64,000 bases of DNA from assembly GCF_007559275.1 (NCBI RefSeq), contig NZ_VMHK01000002.1:124001-188000 (forward strand), in the 5' to 3' direction. The stretch comes from Bifidobacterium apousia (GTDB lineage: Bacteria > Actinomycetota > Actinomycetes > Actinomycetales > Bifidobacteriaceae). Under the pieces are notes generated by a model, which saw only the letters and a program-made list of their open reading frames with translations, was not told where the DNA came from and searched no databases. The translations under genes and the position numbers were made by a program. The stretch's first letter is position 1, and each line of letters opens with the position of its first letter. Below, piece by piece: positions 1,194 to 25,632 of this stretch.

Positions 1194-3605
1194 ATGGATA
1201 CTGAGGTCATGACCGATAGCGTGAAGGAGCGTGGCATTTCGGATCGCGATGCTGTCGATGGCATTCTGGTCGAGAAGCGCGACGGCCGGATCGTCGATTT
1301 TGATCCCGTCAACATTATGAACGCCATCGAAGCCGCCTTCAAGGATGTCAAGCACGAGGTCAGCCCTGAGGATCGCCAGCAGATTCGGGACATGGCCCTG
1401 ACCGTCCAGTCTGAGATCACCGATCGCTACACCAATCCGGTCAAGATCGAGGACATCCAGACCTTGGTCGAGCACGCCCTGGTCAATGCTCATCTTTACG
1501 AGATCGCTCGCTCCTATACCTCCTACCGTCTCGACCGCGACATTCAGCGGGCTAAAGCCACCGATGTCAATGAGGCTGTCCACCGCCTGACCAGCAAGGA
1601 CGAGACTCTGGTGCGCGAGAACGCCAACAAGGACGCCAACGTCTACGCCACCCAGCGTGACCTGCTGGCCGGCGCGGTCTCCAAGGCTTCAGCCTTCGCC
1701 ATGCTGCCCAAGGATGTCTCCAACGCCCACATGAAGGGTGACATCCACTTCCATGACGCGGACTATTCGCCCTTTACGGCTGAGACCAACTGCTCCCTGC
1801 CTGACTTCGGCGACATGCTGGCCCACGGTTTCGAGCTGGGCAACGCCATGATGGACTCGCCTAAGTCCATCGGTACGGCCGCCACGCAGATCACCCAGAT
1901 CATCAAGGACATCGCCGGCTCCCAGTACGGCGGCCAGACCGTCAACCGTTGCGATGAGATGCTGGACAAGTACGCGCGTCTGGACTACAAGAAAAACTAT
2001 TCCATGGCTGAGGCTGTCCTGCCGGACGAGGAGCCCATCGACGTGGCCAAGGATGTCGTCCGCGGCCTCAAGGCTCGGGAGGCTGACTGGCTCCACCTGG
2101 ACGATCGTGCTCCCATCGGCGAGGATGCCCCCTTCGATCTGGACGCTCCCCAGATTGTTCGGCTGCGTCAGGTCTATGCCAAGATCCTGACCCGGAAGAA
2201 CATCTACGACGCCATGCAGACCATGGAGTACCAGATCAACTCCAACCGTGTCTCCAACGGGCAGACCCCCTTCGTCACTGTGGGCTTCGGCCTGGGCACC
2301 TCCTGGTTCGCCAGGGAGATCCAGCGGGCTATCTTCCTGATCCGCATCCGTGGACTGGGCAAGGATCGCCATACCGCCATCTTCCCCAAGCTGGTCTTCA
2401 CCATCAAGCACGGTCTGAACGCGGACGAGGGCGATCCCAACTACGACATGAAGCAGCTGGCTCTGGAATGCTCGACCAAGCGCATGTACCCTGACGTGGT
2501 CTTCTATGAGAACCTGGTCAAGATCACCGGCTCCTTCAAGGCCCCCATGGGTTGCCGCTCCTTCCTGCAGGCCTGGACCAACCCCGAGACGGGCGAGGAC
2601 GAGGAGGACGGCCGCATGAACCTGGGCGTCGTCACCGTCAACATCCCTCGGATCGCGCTTGAGTCCCGCGGCGACAAGGATCGCTTCTGGAAGATCTTCG
2701 ACCAGCGCATGGAGGTGGCCCATCACGCTCTGCAGTTCCGCATCATGCGCTGCAAGCAGGCCACGCCCATCAACGCCCCAACCCTCTACCAATACGGCGC
2801 CTTCGGCAGGCTGAAGCCGACTGACAGCGTGGACACCCTCTTCCGCAACAGCCGCTCCACTGTTTCCTTGGGCTACATCGGCCTTTATGAGGCCACCAGC
2901 GTCTTCTACGGCAAAGACTGGATGAAGGACCACTCCTGGGATCCAGAAGGCAAGGAATTCGCCCTGAGCATCGTGCGCCGGATGAATCAGCTCTGCAAGC
3001 AGTGGGAGAAGGCCGAGGGATACCACTACTCGGTCTACTCCACTCCGGCCGAGTCGCTGACCGACCGCTTCGCCAGGATGGACAAGGAGAAGTTCGGCGT
3101 AGTCGACGGCGTGACCGACCACGACTTCTACACCAACAGCTTCCACTACCCGGTCTGGCTGCGGCCCACGCCTATGGAAAAGCTCAGCTACGAGCGAGAC
3201 TTCCCCTACCTGGCCTCGGGCGGGTTCATCAACTACTGCGAGTTCCCCTCCATGCAGCAGAACCCCAAGGCCTTGGAGGCGGTCTGGGACTACGCCTACG
3301 ACATCGGCATCGGCTACCTGGGCACCAACACGCCCATCGACCATTGCTTCGTCTGCGGCTATGAGGGCGACTTCGAGCCTACCGAGGAGGGCTTCAAGTG
3401 CCCCGAGTGCGGCAACGACGACCCTGACAAGTGCAACGTGACCAAGCGCACCTGCGGCTACCTGGGCAACCCCGTCCAGCGGCCCATGGTTCACGGCAGG
3501 CACGAGGAGATCGCCCACCGCGTCAAGCACATGGAGGGCGAGACCGGTCACGTGGTCCTCAAGGACGGATCCACCAAGGAGTGGTTCGACGACAAGGCCG
3601 AATAG
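1194..3605 (+). CDS. nrdD: Anaerobic ribonucleoside-triphosphate reductase
   Basis: NrdD is the class III, oxygen-sensitive glycyl-radical enzyme that reduces NTPs to dNTPs. An N-terminal ATP-cone (from about residue 25, VEKRDGRIVDF) provides allosteric control. The C-terminus has the zinc site CFVCG...CPECG and the glycyl-radical motif RTCGYLG, with the radical Gly near residue 755 of 803. I place the start at ATG 1194, because GAGGAG at 1183-1188 is well spaced for it but would overlap the in-frame GTG at 1188. nrdG follows 69 bases downstream, separated by a hairpin. Paired NrdR-like boxes lie upstream. Confidence 0.97.
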   Translation: MDTEVMTDSVKERGISDRDAVDGILVEKRDGRIVDFDPVNIMNAIEAAFKDVKHEVSPEDRQQIRDMALTVQSEITDRYTNPVKIEDIQTLVEHALVNAHLYEIARSYTSYRLDRDIQRAKATDVNEAVHRLTSKDETLVRENANKDANVYATQRDLLAGAVSKASAFAMLPKDVSNAHMKGDIHFHDADYSPFTAETNCSLPDFGDMLAHGFELGNAMMDSPKSIGTAATQITQIIKDIAGSQYGGQTVNRCDEMLDKYARLDYKKNYSMAEAVLPDEEPIDVAKDVVRGLKAREADWLHLDDRAPIGEDAPFDLDAPQIVRLRQVYAKILTRKNIYDAMQTMEYQINSNRVSNGQTPFVTVGFGLGTSWFAREIQRAIFLIRIRGLGKDRHTAIFPKLVFTIKHGLNADEGDPNYDMKQLALECSTKRMYPDVVFYENLVKITGSFKAPMGCRSFLQAWTNPETGEDEEDGRMNLGVVTVNIPRIALESRGDKDRFWKIFDQRMEVAHHALQFRIMRCKQATPINAPTLYQYGAFGRLKPTDSVDTLFRNSRSTVSLGYIGLYEATSVFYGKDWMKDHSWDPEGKEFALSIVRRMNQLCKQWEKAEGYHYSVYSTPAESLTDRFARMDKEKFGVVDGVTDHDFYTNSFHYPVWLRPTPMEKLSYERDFPYLASGGFINYCEFPSMQQNPKALEAVWDYAYDIGIGYLGTNTPIDHCFVCGYEGDFEPTEEGFKCPECGNDDPDKCNVTKRTCGYLGNPVQRPMVHGRHEEIAHRVKHMEGETGHVVLKDGSTKEWFDDKAE

Positions 3606-4444: not shown

Positions 4445-5980
4445 ATGGGTGTCATGACTGATGAGCATGATCATGACGCCAAACCCGACCTCCCCAAGGA
4501 TCTGAGGGTCCGCTTCTGCCCTTCGCCGACCGGCACCCCGCATGTGGGCATGGTTCGAACCGCACTCTTCAACTGGGCCCAGGCCCGGCACTCGCACGGC
4601 ACCTTCGTCTTCCGCATCGAGGACACCGATGCCAAGCGCGACAGCGAGGAGAGCTACCAGCAGATCCTGGACGCCCTCAAGTGGCTGGGGCTGGACTGGG
4701 ACGAGGGTGTGGAAGTCGGCGGTCCGGATGGCCCCTACCGGCAGTCCCAGCGCGGCGACATCTACCGCGATGTGGCCCGACAGCTGCTGGATGCCGGCTA
4801 CGCCTATGAGTCCTACTCCACCGCTGAAGAAATCAAGGAGCGCAACCTGGCCGCTGGCCGTCCGGCCGCTTTCGGCTACGACGGCTACGACCGCGACCTG
4901 ACTGAGGAACAGCGCCAGACCTTCCGCGAGCAGGGCCGGCAACCCGCCCTGCGCATCCGTATGCCTGACGAGGACATCGCCTTCGACGACCTGATTCGCG
5001 GGCATATCGAGTTCAAGGCCGGGTCCGTGCCCGATTATGTGATTGTGCGTCCCAATGGCGACCCACTGTACACCCTGACCAATCCGGTCGATGATGCCCT
5101 CATGCGCATCAACGTGGTCCTGCGCGGCGAGGACCTGCTCAGCTCCACCCCCCGGCAGATCGTTCTCTACCGGTACCTGATGAAGCTGGGCATCGCTCGG
5201 GCCATGCCCCTGTTTGGGCACCTGCCCTACGTCATGGGTCAGGGCAAGAAGAAGCTGTCCAAGCGCGACCCTGAGTCCAACCTCTTCCTGCACCGTGAGC
5301 ATGGCTTCATTCCCGAAGGTCTGCTCAACTATCTGGCCCTGCTGGGCTGGTCCATCGGCCCCGACAGCGATGTCTTCTCCATGGATGAGATGATAGAGCA
5401 CTTCGATATCCGCGACGTCAAGGCCAATCCGGCCCACTTCGACATCGACAAGGCCGTGGCCATCAATGCCGAGCACATCCGTATGCTGGAGCCGCAGGAC
5501 TTCCTGAACCGGTCCCTGCCCTACCTCAAGCGCGACGGGCTGGTGAGTGCCGAGCGCTGGCAGGATCTGAGTGATCGGGAGCAGCGAATTCTGAGTGCTG
5601 CCGCCCCCTTGGTCCAGCCTCGCGTGCGTCTGCTGGGCGAGGTGTCCGGCATGGTAGGCAGTCTGCTCAGCCAGGAGGAGTACTTGGAGCCTGAGCCGGA
5701 TGCCCGCAAACAGCTCAAGGACTCCGCAGGACAGGTTCTGGACCTGGCTATTGCCGCCCTGCAGGATGTGCCTGAACAGGATTGGAAGACCGATCACCTG
5801 CACGACCTGCTCACTCAGGCGCTGGTGGATGAGGGCGGCTATAAGCCCCGCCTGGCCTTTGGCCCGGTCAGGGTGGCGGTCTCGGGGAGGCGGGTCTCCC
5901 CACCTCTGTTCGAGTCCCTGGAGATCCTGGGCAAGGGCACAACACTCCGAAGGTTGGCTAACTTGCGCCAAAACCTCTGA
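4445..5980 (+). CDS. gltX: Glutamate--tRNA ligase
   Basis: This class I aminoacyl-tRNA synthetase charges tRNA-Glu. The HIGH-type motif appears in [16 protein letters not shown] and the KMSKS-type motif in [12 protein letters not shown]. The length of 511 residues is typical of bacterial GluRS. A tRNA-Glu gene follows within 70 bases, so enzyme and cognate tRNA are neighbours. A second ATG lies three codons in (MTDEHDHD), and the exact start between them is unsettled. Confidence 0.97.
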
Positions 5981-6048
5981 GCGGGTATATTTCTTTTTTG
6001 TTGTGCTACTGACCTGCTGAACCGGGTTCGTACGCGGCGAAAAGTGAA

Positions 6049-6121
6049 GCCCCCGTCGTCTAGCGGTCTAGGACTACGCCCTCTCACGGCGCCAACACCG
6101 GTCCAAATCCGGTCGGGGGTA
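6049..6121 (+). tRNA. tRNA-Glu (anticodon CTC)
   Basis: A full cloverleaf can be drawn: acceptor GCCCCCG pairs with CGGGGGT (one G-U), the anticodon stem CGCC/GGCG encloses loop CTCTCAC with anticodon CTC, and the T arm contains GGTCCAAATCC. The length is 73 nt with discriminator A; CCA is not encoded. It lies just downstream of gltX. Confidence 0.93.
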
Positions 6122-6162
6122 CGACATGTGGCAACCGTCCAAGCGGTTGTCGCACAGCCAAT

Positions 6163-6234
6163 TGGGGTATGGTGTAATTGGCAACACAGGTGATTCTGGT
6201 TCATCCATTCTTGGTTCGAGTCCAGGTACCCCAG
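6163..6234 (+). tRNA. tRNA-Gln (anticodon CTG)
   Basis: Acceptor TGGGGTA pairs with TACCCCA. The anticodon stem GGTGA/TCATC encloses loop TTCTGGT, giving anticodon CTG. The T loop has the standard GGTTCGAGTCC core. The length is 72 nt with discriminator G; CCA is not fully encoded. It is 41 bases after tRNA-Glu and probably on the same transcript. Confidence 0.93.
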
Positions 6235-6257
6235 CAATAGAGACATAAGGTCTCAAG

Positions 6258-6294
6258 GAGCGGAACACCGACACAGTGTTCCGCTCTTCTTGTT
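6258..6294 (+). terminator. Rho-independent terminator after the tRNA pair
   Basis: GAGCGGAACAC (6258-6268) pairs perfectly with GTGTTCCGCTC (6276-6286) over a 7-nt loop, followed by a T-rich tail TTCTTGTTT. It ends the tRNA transcript. Confidence 0.85.
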
Positions 6295-6549
6295 TACGCA
6301 TTACCATGGATTCTAGGAATGCTTCTGGTCTGCAAAGCGGCGGACGGAGGCGTCCACGAGAGTTGCTCACGGTGTGAGCAAGCAAACAAAAAGAGGAGGC
6401 CCGACAGACTGCTATGTCAGAGTTTCCGATGATGGAATCTGATACTTTGAGCATAGAAGCTTGAGTGATGAACCCAATCATCGGCTGATCGGGCAACATC
6501 ACCCGGTATATGAATCATTGTACGATTTTTTCGGTAAAGGTGTGTGATT
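6295..6549. other. Gap upstream of ndh
   Basis: About 255 bases with no gene. It must contain the promoter of the ndh-cyd block, but I find no convincing -35/-10 pair and no Rex-type palindrome (TTGTGAAN4TTCACAA). AAAGG at 6536-6540 is the ribosome site for ndh. Confidence 0.4.
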
Positions 6550-7725
6550 ATGACGACAATCATGGTGTTGGGAGCTGGTTACGCGGGTCTTCGCGTGGTC
6601 AAGAAGCTGGCTCATGCAAAGACTGATGCCCATATAGTCCTGGTCAACAAGAACGAGTACCACTACGAGTCCACCCAGCTGCACCAGGTGGCGGCGGGAA
6701 CCAAGGAGCCGGCGGACGTGGTCTTCGACCTGCGCAAGTCCCTGCCTGATTCGGTGGAGCTGATCGTCGACAAGGTGGTCGGCATCGATCAGGACAACCG
6801 CCGGGTCAGCCTGGAGCATCACGATCCTCTCTCCTATGATTACCTGGTCAATGCCTTGGGGTTCGAGTCCGAGACCTTCGGCATCAAGGGTGCCGAAGAG
6901 TACGGATGGCCGCTCGTTGACGTGGATACCGCTCTGGCGGCCCGCAAGAAGCTGGAACAGACGCTGGCACGCTACCAGACCAGCCATGATCCGCTGGATC
7001 TGAGCATCGTGGTCTGCGGTGCCGGCTTCACCAGCATCGAGTACTTAGGCGAGCTGGTCTACCGGTTGCCTCAGCTCTCAAAGCGTCTGGGCTTCCCCAT
7101 GGATCAGGTCAAGGTGGACTGCATAGAGGCTTCGCCCAAGATCCTGCCCATGTTCAGCAAGGACCTGGTCGACTGGGCTGTGGATTACCTGCGCAAGCGG
7201 GGAGTCAACTTCCACACCTCGACCCCCATCACCGAGGTCAGGCAGGATGCCGTGGTCTCCAATGACCAGGAGTTCAAGGCCCATACAATCATTTGGACAA
7301 CGGGTGTGCGTGGTAGCCACGTTATTGCCGATTCCGGGTATAATCAGAAGCGTAACCGTGTAGTGGTCAGGGATGACCTGTCGGTGGAGCAGCATCCAGA
7401 GGAATTCCTGGTGGGTGATGTCAGTGCCGTTCCCGACCCCCAATCGGGTCGGCTCTATCCAACCACTGCGCAGATTTCGATGGCCCAGGCTGATACCGCG
7501 GCCGCGAATGTCCTCGCCAGAATGCGGGGACAGGAGCCCCAGCGGTTCACCTTCCGAAGCCTGGGGACCGTGTGCTCTCTCGGTCCCCACGACGGGGTTG
7601 CCGAAATCGACCGTATGGGCACGCTGAAGCTCAAGGGCAAGGTGGTCTCGGTTCTGAAGTGGATCGTGAACGAGCGGTCGGTCCTGGAATTGGCTGACGT
7701 GCGTACCATGTTGGAGAGCAACTGA
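6550..7725 (+). CDS. ndh: Type II NADH:quinone oxidoreductase
   Basis: NDH-2 is a membrane-attached flavoprotein that passes electrons from NADH to quinone without pumping protons. Two Rossmann motifs are visible: GAGYAG at residues 8-13 (FAD) and CGAGFTSIEYLGEL in the middle (NADH). A late segment, FLVGDVSAVPDP, is the second FAD contact. Length is 391 residues. I chose ATG 6550 over GTG 6544 because AAAGG at 6536-6540 is correctly spaced for it. It sits directly upstream of the cytochrome bd genes, so it is probably the NADH entry point of the same short electron chain. Confidence 0.9.
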   Translation: MTTIMVLGAGYAGLRVVKKLAHAKTDAHIVLVNKNEYHYESTQLHQVAAGTKEPADVVFDLRKSLPDSVELIVDKVVGIDQDNRRVSLEHHDPLSYDYLVNALGFESETFGIKGAEEYGWPLVDVDTALAARKKLEQTLARYQTSHDPLDLSIVVCGAGFTSIEYLGELVYRLPQLSKRLGFPMDQVKVDCIEASPKILPMFSKDLVDWAVDYLRKRGVNFHTSTPITEVRQDAVVSNDQEFKAHTIIWTTGVRGSHVIADSGYNQKRNRVVVRDDLSVEQHPEEFLVGDVSAVPDPQSGRLYPTTAQISMAQADTAAANVLARMRGQEPQRFTFRSLGTVCSLGPHDGVAEIDRMGTLKLKGKVVSVLKWIVNERSVLELADVRTMLESN

Positions 7726-17637: not shown

Positions 17638-18441
17638 TCAGACCCTACGACGGGCGGGAGATGAGGCTCGCAGCAGGGCTTCGGTCAGATATTTGCCGGC
17701 GGCCATGACCAGGGGGGCGTAGCGCCTTCCCGGCGTGGTGGACATGCGGTTGACCGGGCCGGAGATGGATATGGCGGCCATGACCTGCCCGGATCCGTTG
17801 CGGATGGGGGCCGAAATGGAACAGACGCCTTCTTCCCGCTCGTTGATGGATTCGGCCCAGCCGCGCTTGCGGACCGTGGCCAGGGTCGCTGCGTTGAACT
17901 TGGCGTGTCGCAGACCCTGATGGAGGCGCTCAGGTTCCTCCCAGGCCAACAGAATCTGTGCTGCCGACCCGGCCTCCATGGACAGCAGGGCGCCTACAGG
18001 GATGGAGTCGCGCAGGCCGGAGGCGCGTTCCACCGCGGCGATGCAGACACGGACTTCGCCTTGGCGGCGGAAAATCTGGGCTGACTCACCCGAACGGTTG
18101 AGCAGTGTATGCAGGATGGGTCCCGAGGCGGTCAGCAGTCGATCCTCGCCAGCGGCAGCGGCCAGCTCGGCGAAGCGGGAGCCCAGGACGAAGCGGCCGT
18201 GTGCATCCCGCAGCACGAAGCGGTGGCGCTCCAAGGCGATGGCCAGTCGGTGGGCTGTGGGTCGAGCCAACCCGGTGGCGTTGACCAGCTGGCCCAGGGT
18301 CATGGGCCCGGTCTCCAGGGTATCCAGAATTCGCACCGTCTTGTCCAAAACGCCGACGCCCGAATGAATCTCCTCCTGATGCATGTTCGGATCATTTGCG
18401 GAGGGATATCTGTCGTCGTCGTTCATAGAAGGTGTGTCCAT
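17638..18441 (-). CDS. IclR-family regulator next to leuCD
   Basis: An N-terminal winged helix (about residues 30-85, with LVNATGLARPTAHRLAIAL as the recognition part) is followed by an IclR effector domain (ending GPVNRMSTTPGRRYAPLVMAAG). In actinobacteria the IclR protein divergent from leuCD (LtbR in Corynebacterium, NdgR in Streptomyces) represses leucine biosynthesis. The same arrangement here makes orthology likely. An inverted repeat overlaps its own predicted -10 and the leuC -35, which suggests autoregulation. The start ATG has no clear ribosome site; ATG 18426 is an alternative. Confidence 0.87.
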   Translation of the reverse strand: MDTPSMNDDDRYPSANDPNMHQEEIHSGVGVLDKTVRILDTLETGPMTLGQLVNATGLARPTAHRLAIALERHRFVLRDAHGRFVLGSRFAELAAAAGEDRLLTASGPILHTLLNRSGESAQIFRRQGEVRVCIAAVERASGLRDSIPVGALLSMEAGSAAQILLAWEEPERLHQGLRHAKFNAATLATVRKRGWAESINEREEGVCSISAPIRNGSGQVMAAISISGPVNRMSTTPGRRYAPLVMAAGKYLTEALLRASSPARRRV

Positions 18442-18464
18442 GGTTGAATTATGCCATCTCAGTA

Positions 18465-18485
18465 TATGAAATGCAAAAGTTCATA
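18465..18485. promoter_or_regulatory. Candidate IclR (LtbR/NdgR-like) operator in the leuC divergent promoter
   Basis: TATGAA (18465-18470) and TTCATA (18480-18485) form an inverted repeat with a 9-bp AT-rich spacer. On the minus strand TATACT (18466-18461) is a good -10 for the IclR gene. On the plus strand TTCATA can serve as the leuC -35 with CATACT downstream. One site could therefore control both genes. Confidence 0.5.
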
Positions 18486-18577
18486 ACAGTTGGGCAGTTC
18501 CATACTCGGTGGTAGGAGGCCGGCGGGGTGCCGATGAGATTGGTGCCCCGGCCGGTCCTAGGTTTTCAGGAGGCGAT

Positions 18578-19981
18578 ATGGGACGCACAATGGCGGAAAA
18601 GGTCTGGGCCGATCATTTGGTCAGAAAGGGCCAGGGAGGCGAGCCCGATCTGATCTACATCGATCTGCAGCTTATGCACGAGGTGACCAGCCCACAGGCC
18701 TTCGAGGGGCTGCGCCTGGCAGGCCGCAAGATCCGTCACCTGGACCAGGTCATCGCCACCGAGGATCACAACACCCCCACCATCGACATCGATCGGCCCA
18801 TCGCCGACAAGGTCTCGGCCCTGCAGATCTCCACCCTGGAGCGCAACTGCCGGGAGTTCGGGGTTCGTCTGCATCCCTTGGGGGATGCCGATCAGGGCAT
18901 TGTCCACGCTTTTGCACCCGTCCTGGGACTGACGCAGCCCGGCATGACCATCGTCTGCGGCGATTCGCATACCTCGACCCACGGGGCCTTCGGGGCCCTG
19001 GCTTTCGGCATCGGCACCTCCGAGGTGGAGCATGTTCTGGCCACCCAGACCCTGAGCCTGAAGCCTTTCAAGACCATGGCCATCACCGTCCGCGGGCAGC
19101 TCAAGCCGGGCGTGGGCGCCAAGGACGTCATCCTGGCCGTCATCGCCAAGATCGGCACTGGCGGCGGCCAAGGGCACGTTCTGGAGTACCGGGGCGAGGC
19201 CATTCGGCGCATGTCCATGGACGCGCGCATGACCATCTGCAACATGTCCATCGAGGCCGGGGCGAGGGCCGGGATGATCGCGCCGGACGATACCACCTTC
19301 GCTTACTTGGAGGGCCGGCCGCACGCCCCCAAGGGAGCCATGTGGGATCAGGCACTGGACTACTGGCGTACCCTGCCCACCGATCCGGACGCAGTCTTCG
19401 ACAAGGAGGTCATCCTGGATGCCGACCAGCTGACCCCCTACGTGACCTGGGGCACCAATCCCGGACAGGGTCTGCCCATTGCCGCTGATGTGCCTGTGCC
19501 CGAAAAGATCGCCGACCCGGCCAAGCGCCAGGCGGCCCAGGAGGCCATCGACTACATGGGGCTGAAGCCGGGGATGCCCATCCGGGACATCGCCGTGGAC
19601 ACCGTGTTCATTGGCTCCTGCACCAACGGGCGCATCGAGGATCTGCGCGCGGCTGCGGCCATCATGAAGGGGCATCACAAGGCCAAGAACCTGCATCGCG
19701 TCCTGGTGGTTCCGGCCTCTTCGCGAGTTCGCATTCAGGCCGAAAAGGAGGGGCTGGATCGCATCTTCGAGGACTTTGGAGCCGAATGGCGCAACGCTGG
19801 CTGCTCCATGTGCCTGGGCATGAACCCCGACCAGCTGGTGCCGGGGGAGCGCTCCATCTCCACATCCAACCGCAACTTCCAGGGTCGTCAGGGCAAGGGC
19901 GGCAGGACGCATCTGGCCTCGCCCGAGGTGGCTGCTGCGACGGCTATCAGGGGAACCATCTGCTCCCCGGCCGATCTGTAA
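18578..19981 (+). CDS. leuC: 3-isopropylmalate dehydratase large subunit
   Basis: LeuC, with LeuD, isomerises 2-isopropylmalate to 3-isopropylmalate in leucine synthesis. It is an aconitase-family [4Fe-4S] protein; cluster cysteines are visible in GSCTNGR and in [11 protein letters not shown], with the substrate motif [13 protein letters not shown] near residue 128. The length is 467 residues. ATG 18578 has CAGGAGG at 18567-18573; the in-frame codons upstream lack a ribosome site. leuD follows after 52 bases. Confidence 0.97.
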
Positions 19982-20033
19982 GCCCATCAATCATTCGTCA
20001 TCGTCATCGCCATCCAGCAGGCAGGAGGTCATC

Positions 20034-20720
20034 ATGGAGCCACTTTCCGTTGTCACCGGGGTCGGGGTGCCCTTGCGCCGCTCCAATGTCGACACTGATC
20101 AGATCATTCCCGCTGTATTCCTGAAGCGGGTGCAGAAGACCGGCTTTGAGGATGCGCTCTTCTACGCCTGGCGAAGGGATCCGAATTTCGTGCTCAACCG
20201 GCCCGAATATTCAGGTGCCCGAGTTCTGGTGGCCGGGCCGGACTTCGGCATCGGCTCCTCGCGCGAGCATGCGGTCTGGGCTCTGCGGGACTACGGCTTC
20301 CGCGTGGTCATCGCCCCCCGCTTCGCCGATATCTTCTATGGGAACACCGCCAAGAACGGTGTTCTGGCCGCCATCATGCCCCAGGAATCAGTGGAGTTGC
20401 TCTGGAAGCTCCTGGAGGAGGACCCCGGCACCGAGATGACCGTGGATCTGGGCGCTCGCACGGTCACCTGCGCGGATGTGACTCTGCCCTTCCAGGTAGA
20501 CGACTACGTGCGGTGGCGGCTCATGAACGGTTACGACGACATTGATCTGACCCTGCAGCACGAGGATGACATCCGTGCCTATGAGCGTATGCGGGCCGAG
20601 CGATTCCCCTTCAAGCCGCGTACTCTGCCGGCCCAGCACATGCCAGAAGAGCCGGTCACTTCAGCCAGGGAGGGTCAAATCGACTGGCCTGGACCCCTGG
20701 CTGACCGCGGCATCATTTGA
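20034..20720 (+). CDS. leuD: 3-isopropylmalate dehydratase small subunit
   Basis: This is the swivelling domain partner of LeuC. Signature segments are [17 protein letters not shown] near the N-terminus and [17 protein letters not shown] in the middle. At 228 residues it is slightly longer than the usual 200. AGGAGG sits just before ATG 20034. It is cotranscribed with leuC. Confidence 0.96.
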
Positions 20721-20834: not shown

Positions 20835-21794
20835 ATGAGGCACAGCAGCGGCGATGTGCACGACTGGGGCGTTAGACGGGCAGTGAATACCCTAAGTGCT
20901 TTTGCCTTCATTTACGTGGCCATCGAGACCCTGGCAGGTCTTGTGGGGGGCAAGGTGGTTCTGCCTGCTCTCTTTCCGCACGCTTCCAAGGCGCAGATCA
21001 ACGGCCCTCTGGGGGACTGGTCAGTGGCCACCTCCGTAGTGCTGGCCCTGCTGTTTGCCTTGATCAGCCAGTGGCCGGTCATCGTAGGCCGTGAACGACA
21101 TGGCCAGGATCAGGTGCGGTGGGTCACTGCGCGCCGATTCAGCCTGTTGGCCTTGATCATTGCCTTAGCCTGCTTCTTCCTCAGTCAGCTGGTGGCAGGG
21201 GCGGCCAACTCCGGACTGAGCGCCGTTCTGTCCAGTACCGGGCTGCATCCGCCGTCCGCACCGGGTGATGGCGACATGGAAACGCCGATCATGCTCTTCT
21301 ATGGCATTCTTTTGGGGCCCTTTGCCGAGGAGCTGGTCTTTCGCGGGGTCATCATGAACGGTCTGCGCCGCTTTGGCCGAGTCTTCGCCATTATTACTTC
21401 TTCCCTGCTTTTCGGCTTCATGCATGGTTCCTTGGTTCAGGGTCTGTTCGGTTTCATTTCCGGCCTGGTTCTGGGCTATCTGGCCATGGAGTATGGGCTG
21501 GTCTGGTCCCTGCTGGTGCACATGCTCAACAATGCTTTCTCTTCAGGCCTGCTGGCCAAGTACATGCCTCTGGCACCCGAGGTGGTTCGCATCGGCTTGG
21601 GCTTTCTCATGATCCTGGTACTGCTGATTGGTGTTATCGGGCTGCTGTTCAAGATCAGGACTCTCCGTGATTACTGCCGCAGCAATCGCGCTCCCAAGGG
21701 AATCTACGCTTCCTGGCGGGCGCCCTGGTTCCTGCTCTTCTGCCTGGCATGTCTGCTGATGGCCCTGAGCGAATTCGTACCAGGGCTGGCCTGA
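20835..21794 (+). CDS. CPBP-family intramembrane metalloprotease, first of three
   Basis: CPBP (CAAX/Abi) proteases are integral membrane metalloproteases. All catalytic motifs are intact: EELVFR (Glu165, Glu166, Arg170), FGFMH (Phe193, His197) and HMLNN (His229, Asn233). About eight hydrophobic helices cover the 319 residues, and the end carries an APKG-ASW-PWFLL motif shared with the next gene. GAGGAGCGG precedes ATG 20835. Substrate and role are unknown; in Gram-positives such proteins occur in bacteriocin immunity and protein maturation. Confidence 0.85.
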   Translation: MRHSSGDVHDWGVRRAVNTLSAFAFIYVAIETLAGLVGGKVVLPALFPHASKAQINGPLGDWSVATSVVLALLFALISQWPVIVGRERHGQDQVRWVTARRFSLLALIIALACFFLSQLVAGAANSGLSAVLSSTGLHPPSAPGDGDMETPIMLFYGILLGPFAEELVFRGVIMNGLRRFGRVFAIITSSLLFGFMHGSLVQGLFGFISGLVLGYLAMEYGLVWSLLVHMLNNAFSSGLLAKYMPLAPEVVRIGLGFLMILVLLIGVIGLLFKIRTLRDYCRSNRAPKGIYASWRAPWFLLFCLACLLMALSEFVPGLA

Positions 21795-21938: not shown

Positions 21939-24476
21939 ATGAAGGGGAAGGATCATCGACGGATGAGGGATGATGAGGATCGCGACAGCGGCAGCGAGTC
22001 CGCCGATGCCCATAGCGATCAGGGGCGCTGGAAGGTGTCGCGCTCCTCTCTCGCCCTCATGACTGCAAGCCACAGTGCCAGCAAGGACTACGCCCGTCAT
22101 TGGGATTATGAGGAAGGATCCATCGACCTGCCGCCCTTGAGCCTGCCGGGGGAGGCCGTGGATGATGGCTTGGCCTACCCGGGAAGGATAGCCCATAGAA
22201 AGACCGCGGTTCTGGGTGATGAAGGAGCTGGCGGCAAGGGTGCCAGGCCAGTCGGCGAACGACCTTCAGTGCTTCCAGGATCTTATGATTTTTTGGACTC
22301 GGTCACCATGGCCAGTCAACCGGGAGTTCCCGCATTTCCTCCTGAGGATCTGCCAGCTGACGGGCACGGCGGAAAGGAACCTGACAAGGAGTCGTCTCCG
22401 CGGCGTGTGGTGGTTCATCGAGAGCCGGAGGTTGCCAAAGCCGCGGAGACCTCGGGGCAGCCGGGGCAGCCTGCGGCCAAGGTCGTCTGGTCCTGGACCA
22501 AGCCCGAGACGAACAAGGGCCCGGTCTTCTCTTGGAATATGCACAAGCGCCGTAAGCCTTCCGCTGCCAAAACGCCATCCGTTCCCGCTTCTTCTGCAGT
22601 CGAACCAGCTGTGCCCAAGTCGGCTACCCCGGCCGGGGTGTCCACGGCCGGGACCCCCCCGGCCTCTGTTCATGCGTCAGCGGCCCCTGTGGTATTCGCC
22701 GACCGGCCAGTCGTAGTCCGTCGCTCGGATGCCGACTGGGATTCCCTGGTCACTGGTTCATCGGCTTCTGTGGAGAACGGTGCTGCTGTACAAGCCGCGT
22801 CCAGCGAAGCCGATCATCAGGGGCGTCGGGTCTGTTCGACTCCACGGGTAGTTGCCCAGCCTGCTGCAGTCGCCGGTGACGGTACCGGCGGTCGGGTCGT
22901 TTCGTCAAAGACTATTGACGGACAGGAGTCGGCTGTCGCACAGAGGGATCATGTCGGCCAGCCTATGCAGACTGGCCAGGCAGAAATTGCCGTTCAGCCT
23001 GCCCCATCCGAATCTTCAGAGGCTGTGAAGGCAGCTCCAGCGACGCAGTCGGTCGTCCAGTTCGCGTCTTCGTCGACATCTGTATCCGCTCCAGGCGCTT
23101 CTGTGGCTCTCGCCGCCAAGGCTGCCGAGGCTGCAGCAGCTGCTGTGGCCGCCAAGGCCAAGTCCTCAGAGACCGAGGAAGCTGCGACGAACGCAACCAA
23201 GCCGACCCGTTCTTCGCATGGTCTTCATTTCGGCCTTTCTGTCAGAGGCCGTGAAAGGAAGAGAGGAGTCCGTCGGTCGTCCAAGCGGCGGGCTGCTCGC
23301 AACCGTACCCGTCCTTCAGCCGAGTTGGCAGCCCCGCGGGTCGTTTCCAATGCTTCGGCAGGACCGGTCACAGGAACAAGCCGACCGGAGTCGGTCAACT
23401 CGCAGCCGATCGCTGTTCCAAGTGAACTTAATGCGGTCACGCCAGCTGCTGAAGTTGCGGCCCAGCCCCAGCTTCAGGCTCAGGCACGACCGCAGGCGGC
23501 CAAGCCCACCACCGGCAAGTCCAACACCTACACAGCCAGTTCCGGGGTCCTCCACGCCGTCAACGGACAGGCTGCCTTCGCCTTCGTCTATCTGGCCATA
23601 TCGGTTCTGGTGCTCATGGTCGGTTCGGGGATGATCCTGCCAGTCATCATGGAGCAGGTCAAGGACCCCAGATCCATCGCCTTCCTATCCGATGGGATTA
23701 CTCTCCTGTCAGTCCTGCTGGCGCTGACCTATGCCTGCATTTCAGAGTGGAGCGTCATTCGAGGTGTGGGTCAGCGAGGACAGGACGCCGTCCGCTGGCG
23801 AACAGATAGAAGAATGACTCTGGCGGCTCTGCTGGCCCTGGTCGCGGTGCTCCTGCTGGGCCAGGGGATGGTTCATGAACTGAATAAGTTCTTCAATCAC
23901 TTCGGTCTGCTCCTGCATATTCCCTCCCTGGCCTCGCACAGCCTGCTGGTCACCGGCGCTTCCTCGCCGATGATGGCCCTGTATGCCCTCCTGGCGGTTC
24001 CCCTGGCTGAGGAGCTGGTTTTCCGTGGCGTCATCCTCAACGGGCTGCGTCGGTATGGCCGGGTTTTTGCCATCCTGACCTCATCCCTGCTCTGCGCCCT
24101 GCTGCAGAGTGACCCGGTCTCTGGGCTTTGGATCTTCCTGCTGGGGCTGGCGCTGGGATACTGCTCCCTGGAATATGGTCTGATCTGGGCCGTCGGAGCC
24201 CGTGTGCTCGGTGATCTGCTCTTCAGCGGCCTGCCCAATCGATATCTGATGAGCGCTCCGAGAACTGCTCGTCTGTCGATTTTGGCAGTGGCGCTGGTCT
24301 TGGTTCTGGCTGGGTTGCTCATGTTCTTCCTGCACCGCGCCAGCCTCTTGGACTACCGGCGGCGCTATCGAGCCCCTAAGGGCACATACGTTTCCTGGAG
24401 GCAGCCTTGGTTCTTGCTCTATTTGCTGCTCTGCCTGCTGCTGACAGTCTTCAAATTCGTGCCTGGTCTGCTCTAG
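21939..24476 (+). CDS. CPBP-like pseudoprotease with long disordered N-terminus
   Basis: Residues about 1-530 are low-complexity, rich in Ala, Pro, Ser and Val, with a basic patch (RGRERKRGVRRSSKRR). A CPBP membrane domain follows. It aligns without gaps to both neighbours from EELVFR (Glu691, Glu692, Arg696) onward, but Phe is Cys719, His is Gln723, the second His is Arg755 and Asn is Asp759. Two of three catalytic motifs are therefore lost while the frame stays open. It is probably catalytically dead and perhaps a scaffold. The start is uncertain; ATG 21963, after GGGGAAGGA, is an alternative. Confidence 0.8.
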   Translation: MKGKDHRRMRDDEDRDSGSESADAHSDQGRWKVSRSSLALMTASHSASKDYARHWDYEEGSIDLPPLSLPGEAVDDGLAYPGRIAHRKTAVLGDEGAGGKGARPVGERPSVLPGSYDFLDSVTMASQPGVPAFPPEDLPADGHGGKEPDKESSPRRVVVHREPEVAKAAETSGQPGQPAAKVVWSWTKPETNKGPVFSWNMHKRRKPSAAKTPSVPASSAVEPAVPKSATPAGVSTAGTPPASVHASAAPVVFADRPVVVRRSDADWDSLVTGSSASVENGAAVQAASSEADHQGRRVCSTPRVVAQPAAVAGDGTGGRVVSSKTIDGQESAVAQRDHVGQPMQTGQAEIAVQPAPSESSEAVKAAPATQSVVQFASSSTSVSAPGASVALAAKAAEAAAAAVAAKAKSSETEEAATNATKPTRSSHGLHFGLSVRGRERKRGVRRSSKRRAARNRTRPSAELAAPRVVSNASAGPVTGTSRPESVNSQPIAVPSELNAVTPAAEVAAQPQLQAQARPQAAKPTTGKSNTYTASSGVLHAVNGQAAFAFVYLAISVLVLMVGSGMILPVIMEQVKDPRSIAFLSDGITLLSVLLALTYACISEWSVIRGVGQRGQDAVRWRTDRRMTLAALLALVAVLLLGQGMVHELNKFFNHFGLLLHIPSLASHSLLVTGASSPMMALYALLAVPLAEELVFRGVILNGLRRYGRVFAILTSSLLCALLQSDPVSGLWIFLLGLALGYCSLEYGLIWAVGARVLGDLLFSGLPNRYLMSAPRTARLSILAVALVLVLAGLLMFFLHRASLLDYRRRYRAPKGTYVSWRQPWFLLYLLLCLLLTVFKFVPGLL

Positions 24477-24579
24477 AGCATGACGCATTGATGCCACCGG
24501 TGGTGGCGTAAACTTGGACCATCTGGAGGTCAATGCCGGATGGCCAAACCTGCAGAGGATCATGAAAGGGCATGGTGAC

Positions 24580-25632
24580 ATGGGGCAGACAGCGACGACA
24601 GCCGACGCGTCAGGGACTGGGCAGACTCAAAAGCCCAGACGAGGCATGGCGGATCGCGCATGGATGAGTAAGGCCAGAGGTATGCTCAACCGCCAGGCCG
24701 CCCTGCTGCTGGTCTACCTGCTCATCATTAACAGTGTCGGCCTTCTGTTCGGTGTTCTGGCTCAGATGGAGTGGAATGCCGTGTTTGATCCAGTGCCTGC
24801 CCACTCGGGATTTATCTATGTGATGAGCCATGCCGACAAGGAGTATGGGGGCATCATCAATCTGATCGCCGCCTGCACCGGCCTCTGCTTCCTGGTTTTC
24901 ACACGACGTCGGCAGATCTGCGATTCCGGTCCCTTGGGCATCTTCCACACGGATCTGCACCCCATGACCTGGCAGGTGCTGCTGGGATGCTTTGCGCTGA
25001 CGCTGACCGGGCAGACCCTGGCCGACTGGTATCAGTCAGGCATGGACTGGACCACGGTGCGGCTGGGAGTGCAGCAGTCCTGGACCACGACTGAGCAGAT
25101 CCAGCAGGCCTCGGGTACCATTCCCATGTTCATCTACGTCAGCCTGCTGGCCCCCGTCATCGAGGAGCTGGTCTTCAGAGGTGCCATCCTGCATGCGCTG
25201 AAGCCCTACGGCCACGTCTTCGCCATCGTCACCTCCGCGGTCATGTTCGGTTTCTTCCATGGCGACCTTGGCCAGGGGTTCTTCGCTTTCATCATGGGTC
25301 TGCTCCTGGGCTATCTGGCCTGCGAATACTCCATCTTCTGGTCCATAGCCCTGCACGTGTTCAACAACCTGGTTGTCAGCGACGGGCTGGAACTCCTTCT
25401 CGGGTTTATGAGCGACAACATGGCCTCCTACGTCAACGTGCTCATGATGCTGGCAGGATTGCTGGCGGCCGTCCTGGTCCTCTACTTGGGCCGTCATCGG
25501 ATTGTCGCTTTTCTGTGTGAAAACCGCACCTATACGAACGTCTACGGTGCCTGGGCCTGCCCATTTTTCATCATGCTGCTGCTGATCATGGGCTTCACGA
25601 TGCTGACCCCCTTCGTTTCAGCTGGCGCCTGA
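24580..25632 (+). CDS. CPBP-family intramembrane metalloprotease, third of three
   Basis: Catalytic motifs are intact: EELVFR (Glu195, Glu196, Arg200), FGFFH (His227) and HVFNN (His259, Asn263), in about eight membrane helices. A short polar N-terminus precedes the first helix (QAALLLVYLLIINSVG). Spacing between motifs is identical to the two upstream paralogues, so the three arose by tandem duplication. I prefer ATG 24580, with AAAGGG nine bases upstream; ATG 24562 and TTG 24514 are in-frame alternatives. The substrate is unknown. Confidence 0.83.
   Translation: MGQTATTADASGTGQTQKPRRGMADRAWMSKARGMLNRQAALLLVYLLIINSVGLLFGVLAQMEWNAVFDPVPAHSGFIYVMSHADKEYGGIINLIAACTGLCFLVFTRRRQICDSGPLGIFHTDLHPMTWQVLLGCFALTLTGQTLADWYQSGMDWTTVRLGVQQSWTTTEQIQQASGTIPMFIYVSLLAPVIEELVFRGAILHALKPYGHVFAIVTSAVMFGFFHGDLGQGFFAFIMGLLLGYLACEYSIFWSIALHVFNNLVVSDGLELLLGFMSDNMASYVNVLMMLAGLLAAVLVLYLGRHRIVAFLCENRTYTNVYGAWACPFFIMLLLIMGFTMLTPFVSAGA

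Follow-up and report, generated by a model that had tools for sequence, protein, structure and literature searches.

The window, the 64,000-nucleotide stretch analysed here from a Bifidobacterium of the asteroides group, contains a tandem trio of genes for Rce1-like CPBP proteins (PF02517), designated A, M and C, which lie on the + strand between leuD and murA (the names of the neighbouring genes were checked). The middle open reading frame, M, occupies positions 21939-24476 and comprises 845 codons. A profile search placed PF02517 at residues 677-754 of M with 48.6 bits against a cut-off of 22.4; A and C also scored above the cut-off, and the genome holds five PF02517 matches in total. M is 43% identical to A and, in the best segment, about 35% identical to C. 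Two further CPBP genes of the same genome (L003, G000 C6:427644-427886, and L004, G000 C6:88421-88690) have intact motifs as judged by eye, and a CPBP match outside the A-M-C cluster was present in 15 of 16 M-bearing genomes. A promoter and terminator scan of the cluster returned chance-level signals only. Among the papers searched, none combines 'Bifidobacterium asteroides' with 'CPBP', and none on the M gene was found among the matches listed (titles and abstract openings). The features of the trio are as follows.

20835 to 21794, + strand: gene A, CPBP protein with all motif residues, sister paralogue of M
21963 to 24476, + strand: gene M, putative CPBP pseudoprotease with a long N-terminal arm (the ORF opens at 21939, but translation probably begins at 21963)
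21963 to 22298, + strand: arm island 1, ORF residues 9-120, holding A[RK]HW[DE]; pooled dN/dS 0.24
22479 to 22550, + strand: arm island 2, residues 181-204, VVWSWTKPE..FSWN; pooled dN/dS 0.22
22671 to 22763, + strand: arm island 3, residues 245-275, ADRPVVVRRSDADWDSL; pooled dN/dS 0.21
23079 to 23168, + strand: arm island 4, residues 381-410, Ala-rich, the sole arm helix in a low-confidence model; pooled dN/dS 0.14
23544 to 24473, + strand: Rce1-like/CPBP membrane domain of M, ORF residues 536-845; median dN/dS 0.11
24009 to 24026, + strand: motif 1, EExxxR, kept (E691, E692, R696)
24093 to 24107, + strand: motif 2, FxxxH, degenerate as C719xxxQ723 (Phe to Cys719, His to Gln723)
24201 to 24215, + strand: motif 4, HxxxN, degenerate as R755xxxD759 (His to Arg755, Asn to Asp759)
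24562 to 25632, + strand: gene C, CPBP protein with all motif residues, adjoining murA; start codon provisional

The initial annotation had given M a head of 530 residues with the ORF start at 21939. An N-terminal arm of nearly this size, about 527 residues, is retained here, but translation likely starts at 21963, behind a GGGGAAGGA stretch. This position is favoured because the ATG at 21939 is ATA in the orthologue G008 and because the first Met of three distant orthologues aligns with codon 9 of M.

Orthologues were sought in 27 genomes of the genus, including the window's own, and the 20 others with a match were taken for the alignment of A, M and C. M was found in 16 of the 27, always open and always between A and C, and the order A-M-C-murA was seen in 15 of 15 fetched M loci as well as in the window. 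The named relatives that bear M, namely B. mizhiense, B. mellis, B. asteroides, B. polysaccharolyticum and Bifidobacterium sp. 7101, live in bee guts. Over the membrane domain, 13 orthologues are 82-100% identical, and three (G013, G014 and G017) only 44-45%. Among the 27 genomes neither A nor M was found without the other, so that the two co-occur in 16/16. Five other members of the genus have two intact CPBP genes between iclR and murA and neither A nor M, and in the remaining six the M and C queries matched nothing. In those five (L051-L055) iclR directly adjoins the CPBP pair, while in the window (17638-20720) leuC and leuD intervene; the spot near iclR therefore varies in gene content between them. 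In the G014 assembly, the A gene (L049:1041-2084), whose motifs are intact, carries a frameshift towards its C terminus, with query residues 9-277 matching in one frame and 275-323 in another, and M is open.

The initial annotation had read, from a gapless alignment with both paralogues, Gln, Arg and Asp at the catalytic His and Asn sites and Cys at the motif Phe, with EExxxR and the reading frame kept. All of these residue assignments were confirmed; the alignment is gapless from EExxxR to motif 4, but not over the whole membrane domain. Motif 1 is present in all 16 M orthologues and motif 2 is CxxxQ in every one of them, while motif 4 is altered throughout, as RxxxD (12), RxxxN (1) or HxxxS (3). 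Written as a seven-letter string for the motif residues E, E, R, F, H, H and N, the M sequence thus reads EERCQRD in 12 orthologues, EERCQRN in one and EERCQHS in three; A and C each read EERFHHN in all 16 M-bearing genomes. Furthermore, 60 loci yielded 98 family ORFs by profile, comprising 15 M orthologues (the window's M lies outside this set) and 83 others, of which 82 are intact: 81 by profile as EERFHHN, and that of G079 by eye, its profile reading having ended early in a local alignment. As the motif-2 losses are common to 16/16 orthologues while 82/83 other family ORFs are intact, they go beyond chance. Family-wide, 135 of 189 Bifidobacterium-family genomes gave a match; the 40 loci taken from other genomes of the family are high-scoring matches among these, and the counts of intact and degenerate ORFs describe this sample. 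The one degenerate CPBP protein among these 83 (EGYFQCY) is encoded about 1.6 kb from an intact one in G123, another genome of the family (L104, reverse strand, 2289-3398 and 5035-6636). Its motif-2 His is again replaced by Gln, but phylogenetically it does not belong to the M clade.

A phylogeny was inferred from 100 membrane domains, without that of G079, in quick mode and with SH-aLRT as the only measure of support. Single branches set A, M and C each apart from all other sequences (support 97, 99 and 99, respectively), and A and M joined at 100. The M group held both M sublineages, although these join between long branches and the join may be false. According to this topology M is the sister of A, and a single duplication within the asteroides group appears to be the best explanation for the pair. 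Motif 2 has Cys and Gln in both sublineages, and this change is most plausibly older than their split, and M would accordingly have lost its water-priming His to Gln while still a single lineage. Divergence of motif 4 is best placed after the split, with Arg and Asp or Asn on one side and His with Ser on the other, so that the oxyanion-hole residues would have been altered later and differently in each sublineage.

Could M simply be a decaying duplicate heading for loss? Its catalytic residues are gone, its branches in the tree are somewhat longer than those of A, its arm varies widely in length, and the invariant fraction of the 80 alignment columns from motif 1 to motif 4 is 0.80, compared with 0.97 in A and 0.86 in C, which suggests that M is slightly looser than its paralogues around the former active site. 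Nevertheless, no frameshift or internal stop was found in any of the 16 M reading frames (a stop reported in G017 is the gene end), and evolution of the membrane domain is as slow as that of A and C. Among 13 close species (78 pairs; 78 used for M and 77 for A and C; Nei-Gojobori), the median dN/dS of the M membrane domain was 0.111, next to 0.103 in A and 0.114 in C, and that of the M arm was 0.369. The pooled values were 0.123 (M membrane domain), 0.106 (A), 0.144 (C) and 0.406 (M arm). Moreover, the degenerate motif 2 is older than the split of sublineages that are now 44-45% identical. Decay was therefore rejected at the level of species, where the neutral evolution or frequent frameshifts expected of a decaying gene were not seen, and we regard it as a very improbable account of M. 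The initial view was thus borne out in part: M is a conserved CPBP protein that lacks the catalytic His residues and is under purifying selection. Judged from its sequence, M is a gene that has lost its catalytic residues and been kept by selection, as in a pseudoprotease of the SpdC kind.

The motif changes differ in what they say about activity. In CPBP enzymes the motif-1 Glu and motif-2 His are described as priming the water, and the HxxxN pair as the oxyanion hole (PMC11980579). For DidK, the equivalent of the motif-2 His lost in M is reported to be essential, whereas Ala replacements at the oxyanion pair take away more than half of the activity without abolishing it; in MmRce1, the equivalent motif-2 His is also reported to matter (PMC10811503). 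Since DidK keeps part of its activity without the oxyanion residues, only the loss of the motif-2 His is a strong argument for inactivity. M has probably lost its peptidase activity. Alternatively, it may be an enzyme with an altered site, in which E691, E692, R696 and Gln723 (with Asp759 in 12/16) hydrolyse a non-ancestral substrate. EExxxR and the Gln are invariant in 16/16, which would count against a pure scaffold, as a scaffold need not keep them, and DidK itself is described as working as an esterase and tolerating Asp for the first Glu (PMC10811503). On the other hand, the His that M lacks is the one on which DidK depends, and motif 4 has Arg for His in 13 orthologues and Ser for Asn in three, a variation between lineages that is expected if catalysis is not selected. 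An altered enzyme consequently seems improbable to us.

The arm sets M apart in length. Counted from the ORF start it ranges from 382 to 842 residues across the 16 orthologues, with 53-63% A/P/S/T/V/G. It is coding, as its dN/dS over 305 gap-free codons is 0.36 in frame, whereas the two alternative frames give 1.05 and 1.20. The claim that the head is disordered held in part: the composition (67% disorder-promoting residues in the window's arm), the variation in length, the absence of any Pfam family at E up to 10 and the coil predicted in a low-confidence model, except for one helix at island 4, all agree with it, but charge-hydropathy puts the window's arm slightly on the ordered side (H 0.437 versus a boundary of 0.419). 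No match to PHROGs was found for the arm either. Four islands within it have pooled dN/dS of 0.14-0.24 versus 0.48-0.56 for the linkers, a descriptive contrast, as the island borders were picked after viewing the conservation profile of the 13 close species. The A[RK]HW[DE] motif of island 1 occurs in 15 of 16 orthologues, including the three distant ones, and reads ARYWN in G008. In the distant orthologues only this short motif is recognisable, and the region aligns only weakly with theirs, the local alignment being equalled in 20 to 40 of 1000 shuffles. A search of the 27 genus genomes with the first 193 residues of the arm (E up to 0.01) recovered the 13 close orthologues and nothing else.

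Arms are also found on other CPBP proteins of the Bifidobacterium family, where they measure 23-411 residues from the first Met to the membrane domain in 43 ORFs (41 of 42 intact by profile, the 42nd degenerate, and one more intact by eye); for the intact homologues the range is 29-411 residues. The intact homologues share the homologous membrane domain and an N-terminal low-complexity arm with M and differ from it in their intact motifs; their arms are shorter and, by eye, mostly Pro/Gln/Tyr-rich, as against Ala/Ser/Pro/Val-rich in M. Because catalytically intact Bifidobacterium homologues are armed too, a long arm is no hallmark of a pseudoprotease, and the earlier suggestion that it marks M as an inactive, iRhom-like copy did not hold in that form, even though the arm of M is longer.

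The topology of M was approached by hydropathy, which is ambiguous, as three of four M sequences show an extra, tenth segment ahead of TM4. Without this doubtful segment, TM4 contains EExxxR and TM7 contains motif 4, and the loops alternate with a Lys/Arg bias inside; the same placement of both motifs is reported for MmRce1 and MrtX (PMC11980579). An automatic Lys/Arg count was clean in one of the four sequences only (G008, 15 versus 8). Homology numbering and the Lys/Arg bias together suggest that the arm is probably on the cytoplasmic side. Structure predictions, for which the window and loci L056-L060 supplied the input, were too low in confidence to be used, with a mean pLDDT of 43.9 for the membrane domain (18 sequences) and 32.6 for full-length M (12 sequences), and a sequence search of solved structures gave only three chance-level SHE2p-type matches (E about 0.65). 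The presumed retention of the CPBP fold by M rests on sequence.

The initial annotation had compared M with iRhoms, the rhomboid pseudoproteases of animals. They belong to an unrelated family and carry a luminal iRhom homology domain; a search of M at E up to 0.01 found no iRhom domain and only PF02517, so that the analogy is one of logic only. The positional part of that logic, an inactive paralogue tied to an intact one, was strengthened by the co-occurrence of A and M in 16/16 and by their sister relation. Closer precedents than iRhoms exist within the CPBP family, namely SpdC/LyrA, LnsB and Abx1. SpdC/LyrA of Staphylococcus aureus is, like M, a CPBP/Abi membrane protein that is described as lacking key catalytic residues and yet being functional (PMC5854430, PMC7387801, PMC10581084), and SpdC has been called 'almost certainly not a protease' because the key residues are absent (PMC7387801). 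LnsB, of S. aureus lipoprotein N-acylation, is likewise described as CPBP-like with diverged catalytic motifs and was suggested to be a co-opted non-catalytic subunit (PMC7387801); it differs from M in that its homology to CPBP is very remote and it works with LnsA, and the account consulted mentions no intact tandem paralogue. Abx1 of Group B Streptococcus is reported as a CPBP protein that acts by protein-protein interaction; unlike M it still has its catalytic residues, but it works with the catalytic Glu and His replaced, the phenotype tested being kept (PMC3578759). M differs from SpdC/LyrA in that it keeps EExxxR, stands in tandem with an intact sister and has an arm of about 530 residues. 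To our knowledge, SpdC has no such arm of about 530 residues. Bacterial CPBP pseudoproteases are thus already known, and what is new in M is that it is paired in tandem with an intact sister, that it retains EExxxR and that its long arm holds constrained islands.

These precedents also offer another role for M, as a non-catalytic scaffold for a cell-envelope enzyme or a sensor kinase, in the way that SpdC serves SagB and WalK, with the link to A reduced to shared descent and position. SpdC and Abx1 are reported to bind histidine kinases, and SpdC also SagB, and in each of the 20 genus loci fetched the CPBP cluster lies next to the peptidoglycan gene murA. However, this adjacency may be passive synteny (among the 40 loci from other genomes of the family, four show murA), no hydrolase or kinase gene was found between leuC and gpsA in the window, and in the genomes searched A never occurs without M, nor M without A. 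We consider such an envelope scaffold rather unlikely.

The reading towards which we lean, with some reserve, takes M for a non-catalytic membrane protein of the CPBP family that acts together with its sister A and recruits partners through its arm. After the loss of its catalytic residues, M would have been retained by selection as a CPBP membrane protein with its peptidase activity probably gone. Its membrane domain may still bind a membrane partner or a lipidated or transmembrane client without cutting it, the likeliest such partner being A itself or the substrate of A. The long, probably cytoplasmic arm would serve as a tether, on which the four constrained islands recruit soluble partners, and M would thereby scaffold or gate its intact neighbour or neighbours. 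A putative role of M as a scaffold or regulator together with A is likely. More tentatively, and by analogy, iRhom-type logic may operate in glutamic intramembrane proteases. Active A and its inactive twin M would then make up an obligatory pair, with M presenting or withholding substrates, and the half-thousand-residue cytoplasmic arm, with its several conserved docking islands, would couple the pair to cytosolic or envelope-building machinery; we hold this doubtful as it stands.

An intact CPBP protease and its degenerate twin lying side by side, with the substitutions placed on a tree, amount to a natural, ordered experiment. The islands of the arm provide concrete baits, and what CPBP domains do without cutting becomes testable in bee symbionts.
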